Shown one piece after another: positions 7,113 to 16,143 of a DNA stretch of 36,103 nt. Every line of letters starts with the position of its first letter. Within the stretch, counting starts at the first letter, position 1. The notes beneath the pieces are model-generated. The model was not told where the DNA came from. It worked only from the letters and a program-made list of their open reading frames with translations, and did not search any database. The stretch is from positions 1-36,103 of the forward strand of contig JALWFE010000067.1 of assembly GCA_027039975.1 (NCBI GenBank). The letters run 5' to 3'. The DNA is from Flavobacteriales bacterium. GTDB taxonomy: Bacteria > Bacteroidota > Bacteroidia > Flavobacteriales > Flavobacteriaceae. The position numbers were made by a program, and so were the translations under genes.

Positions 7113-7931
7113 TTATGGAAATTTCGGAAATTTTTTAAAATCCGGTTTTCTTTTTTCCAAAAAAGCCTGTTTACCTTCCTGTGCTTCATCCATCAAATAG
7201 AACATCAAAGTCGCATCACCGGCAAATTCCATCAAGCCGCGTTGTCCGTCAAGTTCGGCATTTAAAGCCCGCTTAATCATCCGGATAGCCATTGGACTTT
7301 TTTCTTGTATTTTTTGACACCATTCAACCGTTGTATCTTCTAATTGTTCCAAAGGAACAACTTTGTTCACCATACCCATCTGTTCAGCTTCTTTGGCAGT
7401 ATATTGGTCGCATAAAAACCAAATTTCCCGGGCTTTTTTTTGTCCTACGTGTCGTGCCAGATAAGACGAACCGAAACCACCGTCAAAACTGCCGACTTTC
7501 GGTCCCGTTTGTCCGAAACGGGCGTTTTCACTGGCAATGGTTAAATCACAGACTACATGTAAAACGTGTCCGCCGCCTATGGCATAACCATTCACCATAG
7601 CAATAACCGGCTTGGGAATGGAACGGATTTTTTTGTGTACATCCAAGACATTTAATCGCGGTACACCGTCTTCACCGATATAACCGCCTTTACCTTTGAC
7701 ATTCTGGTCCCCACCACTGCAAAATGCCTTATCACCGGCTCCTGTCAGTACAACAACATCAATATCGGGATCGCGGTGACTGATTTCCAATGCATCCAAA
7801 ATTTCATCATTGGTTTTAGGGCGAAATGCATTGTAAACATGTGGACGGTTTATCGTTATCTTTGCAATGCCTTCAAAATATTCAAACAAAATATCTTCAT
7901 ATTCTTTAATGGTTTGCCAATTTCTTTTCAT
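7113..7931 (-). CDS. menB: 1,4-dihydroxy-2-naphthoyl-CoA synthase
   Basis: Crotonase fold; [50 protein letters not shown], ending in [13 protein letters not shown]. Confidence 0.93.
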
Positions 7932-8051
7932 TTTTATTTTATGTTTTTTTGTTTAACTGCAAATTTAATGATTATTGAGGAATTGATGATTTGTTCCGGT
8001 TCATAGTATATTGCTTTCTTTGATGTTATTTATTACTTCATACTTTATGCT

Positions 8052-8091
8052 CCTCATTTCCTCATTTCCTCATTTCCTCATTTCCTCAAAA
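8052..8091. repeat. Octamer array CCTCATTT x4 + CCTCAAAA
   Basis: Exact 8-bp period in manC-menB gap. Confidence 0.8.
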
Positions 8092-8095
8092 ATTT

Positions 8096-8116
8096 GCCAC
8101 TTGCTACTTGTTACTT
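8096..8116 (-). repeat. AAGTNNN heptads overlapping the manC stop codon
   Basis: Minus strand AAGTAAC AAGTAGC AAGTGGC; manC stop TAG (8104-8106) lies inside AAGTAGC. Confidence 0.75.
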
Positions 8117-9159
8117 ATTGTCCGCGCGTATTCTTTCACCTTTTGATCGTCTTTTCGGGGAATAATCATTAATGTATCTTTGCTGTCCACAACAATATAA
8201 TCCCGTAAATCTTTTAAAACTACATTTTTACCGTTTGTTTTGATTAAATTTCCTTGACTGTTGTCAGCCAGCAGATTGCTGTTGATAGTGACATTGTCTT
8301 TTCCGGTTTGTTTCAATTGTTCGTAAACGGCATTCCAAGCCCCTAAATCATTCCATACAAATTTCGCCGGCAACACATAAACATTGTCAGCTTTTTCCAA
8401 AATACCGTAATCAATGGATATGTTTTGCAACTGTGGAAAATTTTCCCTGATAAATGCCGCTTCTTTATCCGTATTATATAATGCATCACCGGTTGACATT
8501 TTGGCAAACATACCGGGCAGATATTTTTGAAAAGCATCTAAAATAACCGAAGCGCGCCAAATAAAAATACCGGCATTCCACAAATAATTACCGGCATTTA
8601 AAAATTTGATGGCTGTATCCAAATCCGGTTTTTCGGTAAATTTCAAAACTTTTTTTATGTGGTTTTCCGTCGTATTATCATATTGAATATAGCCGTATCC
8701 GGTATTGGGGCTATGCGGAATGATACCTAATGTCATCAAAATATTTTTCCGGGCGGTTGCCTTAAAAGCCGTTTGCACATTGGCTATAAACTTGTCTTCA
8801 TCCGCAATATAATGGTCAGAAGGGGCTATCAATAAATTGGCACCGGGATTTAATTTGTAAATTTTCTTGGCCGCATATAAGATAGCCGGAGCGGTATTCC
8901 GCATAACAGGTTCTGCAATAATTTGTGTATCAGATATTTGTGGTAATTGTTCCTTTATCAATTTACGATATCTTTCATTGGTCAAAAGATATATTTGACC
9001 GGCGGGAATTAGTTTGTTTAACCGCTCGAAAGTTTGTTGGATAAACGATTTGCCGGTCCCTAATAAATCCAAAAATTGTTTAGGCATATCCGTCGTGCTT
9101 TCCGGCCAAAACCGGCTACCGATACCACCGGCCATTATCATTCCATAATGATTGTTCAT
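8104..9159 (-). CDS. manC: mannose-1-phosphate guanylyltransferase
   Basis: MAGGIGSRFWPESTTDMPKQFLDL, LIAPSDHYI, FTEKPD, WNAGIFIW, WNDLGAW motifs. Confidence 0.9.
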   Translation of the reverse strand: MNNHYGMIMAGGIGSRFWPESTTDMPKQFLDLLGTGKSFIQQTFERLNKLIPAGQIYLLTNERYRKLIKEQLPQISDTQIIAEPVMRNTAPAILYAAKKIYKLNPGANLLIAPSDHYIADEDKFIANVQTAFKATARKNILMTLGIIPHSPNTGYGYIQYDNTTENHIKKVLKFTEKPDLDTAIKFLNAGNYLWNAGIFIWRASVILDAFQKYLPGMFAKMSTGDALYNTDKEAAFIRENFPQLQNISIDYGILEKADNVYVLPAKFVWNDLGAWNAVYEQLKQTGKDNVTINSNLLADNSQGNLIKTNGKNVVLKDLRDYIVVDSKDTLMIIPRKDDQKVKEYARTISNK

Positions 9160-11802: not shown

Positions 11803-11855
11803 TTTCTAGTAACAAGTATCAAGTAGCAAGTATCAAGTATCAAGTAGCAAGCGGA
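11800..11855 (+). repeat. AAGTNNN heptad array overlapping the TPM gene stop
   Basis: TAGTTTC TAGTAAC AAGTATC AAGTAGC AAGTATC AAGTATC AAGTAGC AAGCGGA; the stop TAG (11800-11802) is the first three bases. Confidence 0.75.
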
Positions 11856-12055: not shown

Positions 12056-13360
12056 ATGCTCCGGAAACTTCAACAAAATTTTCAAAAAATCCCCGGTTGG
12101 CAAAATAAAAAATATTTACTGGCTGTTTCCGGTGGCATTGACAGTATGGTATTGGCTGATATTTTGCTAAAACTTGAATTACGTTTTGAATTGGCACACT
12201 GTAATTTCAAACTTCGCGGACCGGAAAGTGATGCCGATCAAGAATTTGTTGAAAAATATGCCTCTGAACACCAAATTCCCGTCCATATTAAAGTTTGCAC
12301 AATTTCAGATACAGAAAACATTCAAATTGCCGCCCGTAATGCCCGGTATCAATGGTTTGACAGTCTGGTTGATCACTACGGTTTTGATTACATCTTGACA
12401 GCTCATCATCTCGATGACAGTATAGAAACTTTTTTTATCAATTTACTGCGGGCTACCGGTTTGAAAGGTTTGTCGGGCATCGTTAATCATCACAAATTAT
12501 TCCGTCCTTTGTCGGATATCAGCCGTGAAGAAATTGTGAAATATGCCACACAAAATCATTTGTCTTGGCGGGAGGACAGCAGTAATTTATCAGACAAATA
12601 CCGCCGGAATTTTATCCGGCACCATATTATTCCGGAATTAAAAAAATTACAACCCGGATTTTACAAAAGTTTTTCCAAGACCTTTACTTATTTGCAACAA
12701 AGTCAATCGGTTATAGACGAATGGTTTGAAACGGTCAAAAACCGCGTAGTGATAAAGGAAAACGCGGTCTTAAAATTAGATTTGAAACAATTTGATACCG
12801 TCATTCAAAAAGATTTGTTTTTGTATCAATGGCTATCGCTCTATGGTTTTTCGGATATGGAAGGGATAAACCGGTTGTTGACCGGTCAAACCGGTAAAGA
12901 AATATTCAGTAAAGAATTCCGTTTAACCAAACACGGGGATTTTTTATTATTGCAAAAATCCGGTCCGGTTGATGTGCAAACGTACAAGTTAGATAAACAT
13001 ACCAAGGAAATAAACGAGCCGTTACCATTAAAATTAGAGATTATTGACAGAAATGAGTTGAATGAGGAAGTTTTTAAAACAGCCGGTTTGCATGAAATTT
13101 ATATCGATTACGCTTTGATAAAATTTCCTTTGATATTACGAAAATGGCAGCCGGGTGATTATTTTTATCCGTTTGGCATGTCAGGAAAAAAGAAATTAAG
13201 CGACTATTTTACGGATATTAAATTGTCAAAACCTGATAAAGAAAAAATTTGGCTACTATGCAATGGTGTTGATGTTGTGTGGGTTATAGGTAAACGTATG
13301 GATGAACGGTATAAAATTACATCAAAAACTAAAAAAATATTACATTTGCGGTTAATTTAG
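12056..13360 (+). CDS. tilS: tRNA(Ile)-lysidine synthetase
   Basis: YLLAVSGGIDSMVLADIL PP-loop, AHHLDDSIETFFINLLR, C-terminal domain with WQPGDYFYPFGMSGKKKLSDYF. Confidence 0.93.
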   Translation: MLRKLQQNFQKIPGWQNKKYLLAVSGGIDSMVLADILLKLELRFELAHCNFKLRGPESDADQEFVEKYASEHQIPVHIKVCTISDTENIQIAARNARYQWFDSLVDHYGFDYILTAHHLDDSIETFFINLLRATGLKGLSGIVNHHKLFRPLSDISREEIVKYATQNHLSWREDSSNLSDKYRRNFIRHHIIPELKKLQPGFYKSFSKTFTYLQQSQSVIDEWFETVKNRVVIKENAVLKLDLKQFDTVIQKDLFLYQWLSLYGFSDMEGINRLLTGQTGKEIFSKEFRLTKHGDFLLLQKSGPVDVQTYKLDKHTKEINEPLPLKLEIIDRNELNEEVFKTAGLHEIYIDYALIKFPLILRKWQPGDYFYPFGMSGKKKLSDYFTDIKLSKPDKEKIWLLCNGVDVVWVIGKRMDERYKITSKTKKILHLRLI

Positions 13361-13392
13361 TATCAAGTATCAAGTATCAAGTAGCAAGTTGG
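13358..13392 (+). repeat. AAGTNNN heptad array overlapping the tilS stop
   Basis: tAGTATC AAGTATC AAGTATC AAGTAGC AAGTTGG; the stop TAG (13358-13360) is the start of unit 1. Confidence 0.75.
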
Positions 13393-13421
13393 ATAAGAGA
13401 TGAGTGATGAGGGATAATTTA

Positions 13422-13582
13422 GTTGAAAGTGCGAAGTGCCAAGTGGAAAGTGCGGTTTTGTTAGTTGAAAGTGCGAAGTGCCAAGTGGAAAGTGCGGTTT
13501 TGTTAGTTGAAAGTGCGAAGTGCCAAGTGGAAAGTGCGGTTTTGTTAGTTGAAAGTGCGAAGTGCCAAGTGGAAAGTGCGAA
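13422..13582. repeat. 42-bp tandem repeat (6 heptads), 3 full copies plus partial fourth
   Basis: GTTGAAAGTGCGAAGTGCCAAGTGGAAAGTGCGGTTTTGTTA at 13422, 13464, 13506; partial at 13548. Confidence 0.95.
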
Positions 13583-13583
13583 T

Positions 13584-13611
13584 GAGTTGAAAGTTGAAAG
13601 TTAAAAGTTAT
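13584..13611. repeat. AAGTTNA heptad array
   Basis: GAGTTGA AAGTTGA AAGTTAA AAGTTAT. Confidence 0.75.
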
Positions 13612-13632
13612 ACTTCGACAAGCTCAGTGACC
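13612..13632 (+). repeat. ACTTCGACAAGCTCAGTGACC element
   Basis: Near-identical to 1887-1908 and 13658-13679. Confidence 0.75.
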
Positions 13633-13657
13633 TATTAAATGGAGAATTGAAAATGGA

Positions 13658-13679
13658 CACTTCGACAAGCTCAGTGACC
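13658..13679 (+). repeat. CACTTCGACAAGCTCAGTGACC element
   Basis: Direct repeat of 13612-13632. Confidence 0.75.
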
Positions 13680-13688
13680 AGATTTCTC

Positions 13689-13706
13689 TCCCGACTTTCG
13701 TCGGGA
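13689..13706. repeat. TCCCGAC-TTTC-GTCGGGA hairpin
   Basis: Perfect 7-bp stem with 4-nt loop. Confidence 0.7.
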
Positions 13707-13723
13707 TCGAAATGACACCGGCA

Positions 13724-13835
13724 CCTGACACCCGACATCGGACATCCAACATCCGACACCCGACACCGGACATCGGACATCCGACATCCAACATCCGACA
13801 CCCGACATCGGACATCGGACATCCGACATCCGACA
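13724..13835. repeat. YCNRACA heptad array, 16 units
   Basis: 112 bp = 16 x 7; units are TCCGACA, TCGGACA, CCCGACA, TCCAACA, CCGGACA, CCTGACA; ACA fixed. Confidence 0.9.
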
Positions 13836-13837
13836 TC

Positions 13838-13902
13838 AAATAACCGATTAACCAAATAACCAGATAACCAACATCATCAAATAACCAAATAACCGATTAA
13901 AC
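13838..13902. repeat. NNNTAACC octamer array, ends 9 bp before dsbD start
   Basis: AAATAACC GATTAACC AAATAACC AGATAACC (AACATCATC) AAATAACC AAATAACC GATTAAAC. Confidence 0.8.
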
Positions 13903-13911
13903 AATAAAATC

Positions 13912-16143
13912 ATGAAAAAACTGTGGCTTATATTTTTCTGGATATCTTTTACGGCTGTTGCACAATTAGGACAGCAAAAAATTGTCAATCCTCTTAAATG
14001 GCATACAAGTGTTGAAAAAACCGGAGATGACACATACAATTTGATTTTTGAGGCGGATATTGAAGACGGTTGGCATTTGTATTCACAATTTAACGATCCG
14101 AGGGGTTCTTTGCCTATCGAATTTGAATGGCTTGACGCCAAAGGCAATTATGAAGTCATTGGTAAAGCCAAAGAAATCAATACGCATAAAGCTTATAATA
14201 AAGTTTTTAAAGTTACCGAAACTTTCTTTTCAAAACATGCCAAACTGATTCAACCGGTCAAGGTTCTGAAAAAAGATTTGAAAAAAATCGCTGTCACACT
14301 TTACGGGCAAGCTTGTAAGGAGTCGTGTATTCAAATTAAAGAAAATTTTACTTTTGATTTGACCAAAGCCAAAACCGTAAAACCGGAAAAATCCGATAAA
14401 AGCACAAAAAGCGTAAATGCAATAAAACAATCCGGTGAAACAAATAGTAGTGTTTCTCAAACGGCTGATGTTCCAAAAGATAAACAACAAAAACAATCCG
14501 TTGAAACCAAAGCGAAAACTACCGGAGACGAAGCCGGGACAAACGCAACCGATAGTACCAAGCAAGAAAAAGATTTGACGGAAGGTGGCAAATACACACC
14601 AATCCCCGTGCCGAAAGACGAAATTGAAACAGGGGAGAAAGTGGAGCAAGCCGGTGATGTGCCTGTTCAACCAAAAAAGCGAACCGATTGGAGTATTTTC
14701 TGGACGGCTTTTATTGCCGGTTTGTTGGTATTGTTAACACCTTGTGTATTCCCGATGATTCCTTTAACGATTAGTTTTTTCACCAAACAAAATGAAAAAA
14801 GTACCGGTGAAGGCAGACGCAATGCATTGGTATATGCCATTTCAATCGTTTTGATTTACGTGGCGTTCAGTTTACCGTTTCATTTGTTGGAAAAGGTTGA
14901 CAGTTCGATGTTTAACGCTATGGCAACCAATACTTGGGTTAATTTGTTTTTCTTTATCATTTTTGTTTTGTTTGCTTTAAATTTATTCGGTGTCGAAAAA
15001 CTTGATCCGGTTCGTATTATTCCGCAATCGTGGGTGAGTTCCGCCGATAAGCAATCCAACAAAGGCGGTATATTAGCCGGTTTTTTTATGGCGTTAACCT
15101 TGGTGATAGTTTCGTTTTCCTGTACCGGTCCGGCTTTGGGATTTATTTTAGGAAATGTTGCTAACAGTGCCGGTGGTGCCGTTTCGCTAACTTATGCTAT
15201 GCTCGGTTTCGGACTGGGAATTGCTATTCCGTTCGGTATTTTGGCCTTTTTTCCGGTCTTACTCAACAAATTACCGCGTTCGGGCGCTTGGCTCAACAGT
15301 GTTAAGGTAATTTTCGGTTTTATAGAATTGGCATTTGCTTTCAAATTTTTATCCAATGCCGATTTGGTCAATCAATGGCATTTTTTGGAACGCGAAGTTT
15401 TTATTGCTATTTGGATAGCTATTACGGTAAGTATGGCCATGTATTTATTCGGTAAAATCCGTCTACCTCACGATGCGCCTGTTGAAAATTTAAGTGTTTT
15501 CAGATTTTTACTCGGTTTGTTTACATTGTCATTTGCTTTTTATTTGATACCCGGATTGTGGGGAGCACCCTTGAATATCATCAGCGGATTTCCACCACCT
15601 ATGAAATATGCCGAATCTAAATTTGGTGTCGGTTATTCCAAAACCATATCTGCGGCACAAACACATCATCAGGATTTGCCCGAAGGAGCGGAATACGGTC
15701 CTCATAATATTATTGCTTTTGAAGATTATGATGTGGCTATGGCTTATGCCAAAAAAGTCAACAAACCTTTATTGATAGATTTTACGGGAAGGGCTTGCCA
15801 AAATTGCCGTTTGATGGAAGAAAATGTGTGGAGTAAAGATAAAATTTTACCGATTTTTAAAAATGAAGTGGTTTTGGTCTCACTCTATGTCGATGAACGC
15901 ACCAAGTTGCCCGAAGACAAACAATATATTTCAAAATATACCGGAGATAAAGTCACTACGGTTGGTCAAAAATGGAGTGAATTTGAAACTTATAAATATA
16001 AAAATAATTCGCAACCGCTGTATGTTATTGAAAATCACGAAGGTAAAAATATGAATGAACCGATAGGTTATACGCCAGAAGTTGATGTGTATTACAAGTG
16101 GCTGAAAAAAGGTATTGAAAATTTCAAAAAACAACAAAAATAA
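13912..16143 (+). CDS. dsbD: DsbD-family thiol:disulfide interchange protein
   Basis: Signal peptide, N-terminal DsbD domain, polytopic core with LTPCVFPMIPLT, C-terminal thioredoxin domain DFTGRACQNCRLMEENVW. Confidence 0.9.
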   Translation: MKKLWLIFFWISFTAVAQLGQQKIVNPLKWHTSVEKTGDDTYNLIFEADIEDGWHLYSQFNDPRGSLPIEFEWLDAKGNYEVIGKAKEINTHKAYNKVFKVTETFFSKHAKLIQPVKVLKKDLKKIAVTLYGQACKESCIQIKENFTFDLTKAKTVKPEKSDKSTKSVNAIKQSGETNSSVSQTADVPKDKQQKQSVETKAKTTGDEAGTNATDSTKQEKDLTEGGKYTPIPVPKDEIETGEKVEQAGDVPVQPKKRTDWSIFWTAFIAGLLVLLTPCVFPMIPLTISFFTKQNEKSTGEGRRNALVYAISIVLIYVAFSLPFHLLEKVDSSMFNAMATNTWVNLFFFIIFVLFALNLFGVEKLDPVRIIPQSWVSSADKQSNKGGILAGFFMALTLVIVSFSCTGPALGFILGNVANSAGGAVSLTYAMLGFGLGIAIPFGILAFFPVLLNKLPRSGAWLNSVKVIFGFIELAFAFKFLSNADLVNQWHFLEREVFIAIWIAITVSMAMYLFGKIRLPHDAPVENLSVFRFLLGLFTLSFAFYLIPGLWGAPLNIISGFPPPMKYAESKFGVGYSKTISAAQTHHQDLPEGAEYGPHNIIAFEDYDVAMAYAKKVNKPLLIDFTGRACQNCRLMEENVWSKDKILPIFKNEVVLVSLYVDERTKLPEDKQYISKYTGDKVTTVGQKWSEFETYKYKNNSQPLYVIENHEGKNMNEPIGYTPEVDVYYKWLKKGIENFKKQQK

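Follow-up and report, generated by a model that had tools for sequence, protein, structure and literature searches.

Repeat modules between tilS and dsbD

The DNA analysed here, a 36,103-bp stretch hereafter called the window, comes from the draft genome of an uncultured flavobacterium (2.16 Mb in 140 contigs, 97% complete). Its plus strand carries tilS (12056–13360; a 434-aa ORF, supported by synteny), followed by dsbD (13912–16143; a 743-aa ORF), and the 554-bp gap between the two genes is filled with short repeats, all described here as read on the plus strand. The gap opens with AAGTNNN heptads (module A; 13358–13392) in the order TAGTATC, AAGTATC, AAGTATC, AAGTAGC, AAGTTGG, and the TAG stop codon of tilS (13358–13360) is the start of the first unit. 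RGATRAG-type heptads (module B; 13391–13418) follow as GGATAAG, AGATGAG, TGATGAG and GGATAAT. Module A then resumes as a 42-bp higher-order repeat (13419–13580), for which TRF reported 3.9 copies at 100%; its unit is a TTAGT-led block of AAGTNNN heptads with a GTTTTG linker, and the identical copies represent a recent block duplication. A further stretch of module A consists of AAGTTGA and AAGTTAA heptads (13585–13611).

The second half of the gap starts with two copies of module C, the first being a ACTTCGACAAGCTCAGTGACC element (13612–13632, with CTTCGACAAGCTCAGTGACC at 13613–13632) and the second a CACTTCGACAAGCTCAGTGACC element (13658–13679, with CTTCGACAAGCTCAGTGACC at 13660–13679). Between them lies a non-periodic connector (13633–13657; part of TTAAATGGAGAATTGAAAATGGACACTTCGAC...). 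Module D (13680–13717) has an outer stem, AGATTTC...GAAATGAC, that encloses an interchangeable inner hairpin, here TCCCGAC-TTTC-GTCGGGA. It is followed by module E, 16 RACAYSN heptads with a 35/42-bp higher-order structure (13727–13838) that contain no start codon in the sense orientation, and by module F, an array of TAACCNNN octamers (13841–13905) that adjoins the dsbD start and includes six exact TAACC units. The F array is poor in G and free of start codons and, by direct reading, provides TAA in all frames.

A sequence-only reading of the window had listed these arrays, and each was present where it had been placed, at counts far above those in shuffled sequence; this includes the 42-bp repeat, read as three full copies and a partial one, and the 16 heptads preceding the octamers. 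Its estimate that about 550 bp are almost wholly repetitive was borne out in full, as 554 of the 554 bp had matches at other places in the genome sample, while five shuffled versions of the gap matched 0 bp in the same sample. Its count of at least six repeat families needs revision, because the AAGTATC, 42-bp and AAGTTGA blocks belong to a single AAGTNNN family and the families are therefore fewer than listed; what remains is three families of heptads, one of octamers and two elements of hairpin type. Likewise, the octamers had been said to end 9 bp before the dsbD ATG, but 17 bp separate that codon from the last exact TAACC, and what lies nearer is a degenerate TTAAACAA unit.

The gap as a whole folded no better than its shuffles (z = 0.46), and comparison with Rfam yielded only sub-threshold chance matches, none reaching a gathering score. 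A CRISPR array was rejected, since the 7- and 8-bp units have no spacers and the 42-bp copies are directly adjacent.

Module order, orientation and gene boundaries

Used as a DNA query, the gap matched 93 places in its own genome. We scanned for the six modules in 35 stretches plus the window, together 663 kb or about a third of the genome; the stretches were a non-random sample, some having been picked because they held matches to the gap, and gene calls came from a crude ORF rule. Modules A to F occurred 110, 27, 36, 23, 25 and 37 times, respectively, against 2.0, 0.3, 0, 3.3, 0 and 0 times after dinucleotide shuffling of the same 663 kb. In gaps between genes of the same direction, the sense sequence of modules was AAGTNNN heptads, RGATRAG heptads, the CTTCGACAAGCTCAG element, the AGATTTC..GAAATGAC hairpin, RACAYSN heptads and TAACCNNN octamers, and the sense orientation prevailed for every module (sense to antisense, A 60:18, B 20:1, C 26:2, D 15:4, E 21:1 and F 32:1).

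Among the 30 gaps holding at least two kinds of module, the order A-B-C-D-E-F was kept by 204 module pairs and broken by 12; 2000 permutations of the order gave a mean of 108 and a maximum of 141 pairs, a comparison in which copies related by descent are non-independent events. Four sister species showed the same order, with 17:1 pairs in G107, 35:3 in G110, 9:0 in G109 and 4:0 in G106 (65:4 in total). The exceptions included at least one antisense copy of the mosaic (L120:10130–10368) and two module F arrays in divergent gaps, at L112. Two further candidates for convergent or divergent exceptions (L102 and L105) were rejected as gene-call errors, spurious reading frames inside the repeats. 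Individual copies vary in unit number and in which of the middle modules they hold. About 30 same-direction gaps here, and gaps in four sister species, thus share one set of modules with a common order and orientation. We therefore conclude with high confidence that the tilS-dsbD gap represents a single copy of an ordered mosaic dispersed among intergenic regions. This replaces the idea of a local hotspot at which unlike arrays accumulate.

Additional elements were seen within some mosaics. A non-periodic element of about 50–60 bp (AACGAAAACAATCATTATTAACAAAACACGCTATGAACCTAAAACGCACT...) lies near the E-F junction in the L110 gap (7199–7508) and in L101, L103, L116, L154 and L008; it is a seventh module, standing outside the tests of order and counts. 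An AGACGT..ACGTCT-type palindrome (AGACGTTGC...GCAACGTCT) occupies the middle of several mosaics (L103:2690–3026, L105, L133 and L146).

The mosaic is anchored at both ends to codons. Module A begins at the upstream stop codon or within a few bases of it, and TAG was the stop codon of 23 of the 36 genes followed by A arrays as compared with 49 of 412 other genes (p = 9e-12), an excess that arises because the leading unit is TAGTNNN. An A-only array, a partial mosaic of the same word family, is found at 11808–11851 (plus strand), just downstream of the stop codon of the preceding gene. At the other end, module F terminated −2 to 15 bp from a start codon in 27–28 of 35 cases. Of the 330 same-direction gaps, 32 contained it, whereas none of the 67 convergent gaps did (p = 0.003); among divergent start codons it was rare, lying at 2 of about 146 (p = 0.0007). 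After correction of one miscalled gene, no convergent gap contained a full mosaic.

The words themselves are widespread in the class, AAGTNNA arrays occurring in 44 and ACAYC heptads in 17 of 198 genomes, and TAACC octamers were found in 11 of 251 genomes of the family. The position bias is weak outside the genus (E at ATG, 10 sense and 3 antisense; A at stop codons, 10 sense and 6 antisense), so that a strict positional rule for the whole class was rejected. The strict grammar is shown in this genus only.

The -7 promoter motif of Bacteroidota is TAnnTTTG. We found it in 1 of the 31 gaps that contain module F (F gaps) and in 67 of the 134 same-direction gaps without F (p = 3e-7). In total, the F gaps had one sense TAnnTTTG in 11.8 kb, where shuffles had 2.7 ± 1.5, whereas the same-direction gaps without F had 84 compared with 26.7 in shuffles. 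Within the tilS-dsbD gap there were 0 terminator-like sites, and a sigma-70-type scan returned four weak matches as against 1.6 ± 1.4 expected by chance; the notion that the gap is an intrinsic terminator or promoter region was rejected on the terminator count and the scarcity of TAnnTTTG. The last 60 nt of the F leaders contained 4.9% G and 0.03 ATG, compared with 10.6% and 0.52 in other same-direction gaps. In sister genomes, tilS and dsbD are adjacent, and the gaps, about 15–150 bp long, show no more than a trace of a single module: L039 has a GATGA-like run, L040 a few TAACC-like units and L042 a hairpin. Because F gaps lack the -7 motif and the gaps of relatives are tight, dsbD is most likely transcribed by read-through from tilS. 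The earlier proposition that any dsbD promoter must lie within the repeats is thereby answered in part.

The outer stem of module D is kept among copies, and its inner stems vary through compensatory base changes (TCCCGAC/GTCGGGA, TCCCTAC/GTAGGGA and CCCCGAC/GTCGGGG). Selection for folding of the E arrays was rejected, as shuffling the order of their units left the folding equally good.

Turnover and probable copying among loci

We compared the mosaic loci with those of relatives, which were metagenome genomes of Flavobacteriales/Flavobacteriaceae and also drafts. The number of gap matches dropped with dsbD distance, from 48 in G107, 41 in G106 and 20 in G102 to 0–4 in farther species. Because the sister gaps are short and the matches fall with distance, the expansion at tilS-dsbD looks lineage-specific. 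Comparison of orthologous gaps, as the sequence-only reading had proposed, indeed showed this gap to vary between species. Among 147 orthologous adjacent gene pairs, counted as pair-wise rows in several of which the window gap recurs, modules were present in both genomes in 18, only here in 12, only in the relative in 3 and in neither in 114. One gene pair carried different module strings here (L110:7199–7508) and in L164, L160 and L170. As most sister orthologous gaps have no mosaic, it is dispensable at any one locus.

Non-orthologous gaps shared identical blocks that run across module junctions. The longest blocks were 98 bp (L099/L100), 77 bp and 61 bp elsewhere. The connector at 13633–13657 in the window gap has an exact match in the non-orthologous L099, the identity extending to 54 bp when module C is counted. 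Copies have therefore probably been rewritten from one another. This genome and G107 share a near-identical tract in which the mosaic's E/F half differs by 1 bp and its A half has been replaced, being about 94 bp longer in G107; the typical divergence of the two genomes at fourfold sites is 0.53. Tracts of 93–100% DNA identity (L122:8366–11239 versus L136; L110:12830–19805 versus L146) are, despite this divergence of about 0.53, consistent with either recent exchange between the species or shared contig binning. A tie between recombination breakpoints and mosaics was rejected, since near-identical tracts with G107 end inside genes too.

The arrangement of units within arrays bears on how they grow. 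Units of F matched at lag 2 more often than expected (49 versus 32.7 ± 3.8) and avoided matching at lag 1 (27 versus 39.9 ± 4.2), and units of E matched at lags 5–6, not at lag 1. Neighbouring units are thus unlike, so that slippage of single units is not the mode of growth. We infer growth by duplication of multi-unit blocks, the 42-bp repeat being the same kind of event. Block copying is also the probable means by which the mosaic spread.

Proposed explanation, rivals and precedents

The explanation that best covers the whole, and towards which we lean, is that of an ordered stop-to-start mosaic that is copied between loci and acts as a promoterless spacer in operons. The mosaic takes up the gap between one stop codon and the start codon that follows. 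Its copies would spread and be rewritten via recombination or gene conversion among about one hundred homologous places, and unit number would be altered by duplication of multi-unit blocks of 16, 35 or 42 bp, not by slippage of single heptads. Inside an operon, it would provide a spacer without promoter that ends the first reading frame and sets small hairpins between the cistrons; the second gene would receive a G-poor leader free of start codons, making its translation start separate from tilS. That such a spacer function has been selected is a tentative suggestion; the module order could come from duplication of whole copies without selection. We are doubtful about the more ambitious version, in which a genome-wide intercistronic grammar with a fixed slot for each family would be a selected device that uncouples and sets downstream translation in operons, its unit number being rewritten by recombination as an expression dial.

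A serious rival holds that the mosaic is neutral, grown by slippage and copied by recombination without any role, and persists where it does the least harm, that is, in the promoterless gaps of operons and in whichever orientation introduces no start codons ahead of a gene. Rapid turnover, dispensability, block copying and variable unit numbers all agree with it, and the clean leaders might reflect the purging of harmful versions. However, convergent gaps should be the least harmful sites, yet they hold neither module F nor a full mosaic; moreover, the dissimilarity of adjacent units argues against single-unit slippage, and four other species retain the order and anchoring despite turnover at the locus level. 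Neutral origin with purging is quite possible, though the lack of F in convergent gaps weighs against it. Improbable, in our view, is a Rho-loading leader, in which the C-rich and G-poor E/F arrays, with a pyrimidine-C step every 7–8 nt, would attenuate the second gene unless ribosomes follow closely. Their composition and spacing resemble the known preferences of Rho sites, the F leaders have 23% C and 5% G, and TAA in every frame would uncouple the ribosomes. Against this reading, terminators are needed in convergent gaps, yet E and F do not occur there after stop codons; E arrays are also capable of self-folding, and both modules lie close up against start codons. A Rho terminator serving the upstream gene was rejected by the absence of E/F from convergent gaps.

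Mobility as a non-autonomous transposon of the REPIN or MITE type, moved by a REP-associated tyrosine transposase, would account for the dispersal and high copy number of the palindromic parts C and D, and Y1 transposases do occur in some relatives. We nevertheless consider it very unlikely. Among the draft genomes, this one holds a single transposase fragment with a stop codon and the mosaic-rich G110 holds none, and the transposase loci examined in relatives contain no modules; no link between transposase and modules was seen in these drafts, and RAYT-driven mobility was set aside. The fragment itself (L220; G000:C115:699–875), left over from a Y1 (RAYT-type) transposase and interrupted by a stop codon, lies in a 2.4-kb locus devoid of modules. 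Neighbouring C elements were in the same orientation in 10 cases and in opposite orientation in 0. Reading filled and empty orthologous sites side by side showed no terminal inverted repeats or target-site duplications, and the mosaic ends coincide with stop and start codons; classification as a MITE or transposon was rejected accordingly. Lastly, misassembly of repetitive DNA might be suspected in a 140-contig draft, and the copy number of arrays near the read length may be off. An artefact is nonetheless scarcely tenable, and largely refuted, as the same grammar appears in five separately assembled genomes, the gaps are flanked by syntenic orthologs, and shared blocks differ in detail between copies. 

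Among known kinds, BIME mosaics and heptamer arrays come nearest, and one defining feature of each is missing here; in the literature searched, we found no named element of exactly this composition, in keeping with the sequence-only reading, and no match to the CTTCGACAAGCTCAG string. BIMEs and REP clusters are high-copy intergenic mosaics of distinct motifs, including palindromes, with a composition that varies by copy (PMC2817692, PMC3733652). Our mosaic resembles them in being dispersed, high-copy and intergenic, with copies differing in composition. Unlike BIMEs, with their paired and alternating palindromes, it consists mainly of heptad and octamer tandem arrays, lacks alternation of the C elements and is anchored to stop and start codons. 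No linked RAYT (Y1 transposase), another mark of BIMEs, was found in the draft genomes.

The nearest precedent is the TAACTGA heptamer, described as direct repeats upstream of start codons in Beggiatoaceae, cyanobacteria and some Bacteroidota (MacGregor 2015, PMC4679880). For Gramella, Aequorivita and Elizabethkingia, the paper reports mixed heptamer repeats that occur together in one gap, and close relatives of some of these have none. Like the TAACTGA repeats, module F is TAAC-led, sense-oriented and mostly within 15 bp of the start. Unlike them, it has an 8-bp unit, TAACCNNN, with three variable bases and is the last of six ordered modules; the supply of a stop codon by the AAGTNNN array is not described in the part available (PMC4679880). 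The TAACTGA doublet TAACTGATAACTGA was absent from 288 loci. Two further kinds are the STRR heptanucleotide repeats found in heterocystous cyanobacteria and long simple sequence repeats whose unit is 7 bp (Mrazek et al. 2007, cited in PMC4679880). The mosaic shares with these the 7-bp tandem units in gene gaps. To our knowledge, no ordered multi-family grammar or anchoring to gene boundaries is known for such repeats. Neisserial intergenic mosaic elements (NIME) are built of 50–150 bp repeats between dRS3 inverted repeats; they are likewise gap-filling mosaics made from a small parts list, but the parts here are heptad and octamer arrays in gene-oriented order.

Heptamer gap repeats are usually described family by family, as loose junk or as individual binding sites. 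Here, six families obey one rule of order, orientation and gene boundaries over many loci and in several species, with fast turnover at each locus. The mosaic offers a testable case of intergenic DNA assembled from parts that rewrites gene ends by supplying stop codons. At tilS-dsbD, the spacer has been lengthened from the 15–150 bp of relatives to about 550 bp without an added promoter consensus, and closely related species, some carrying the mosaic at a given gene pair and others lacking it, are natural controls for an effect on expression.

Related repeats were noted at two other places in the window. A 577-bp gap (1427–2003), about 77% of which matches other places in the genome, contains one C element (1890–1908, one mismatch) and short AAATCTG/AATTCATC arrays. 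At 8051–8116, just upstream of the end of a minus-strand gene (8104–9159), AATGAGGA octamers adjoin AAGTNNN heptads; this is a different octamer family beside a stop codon.
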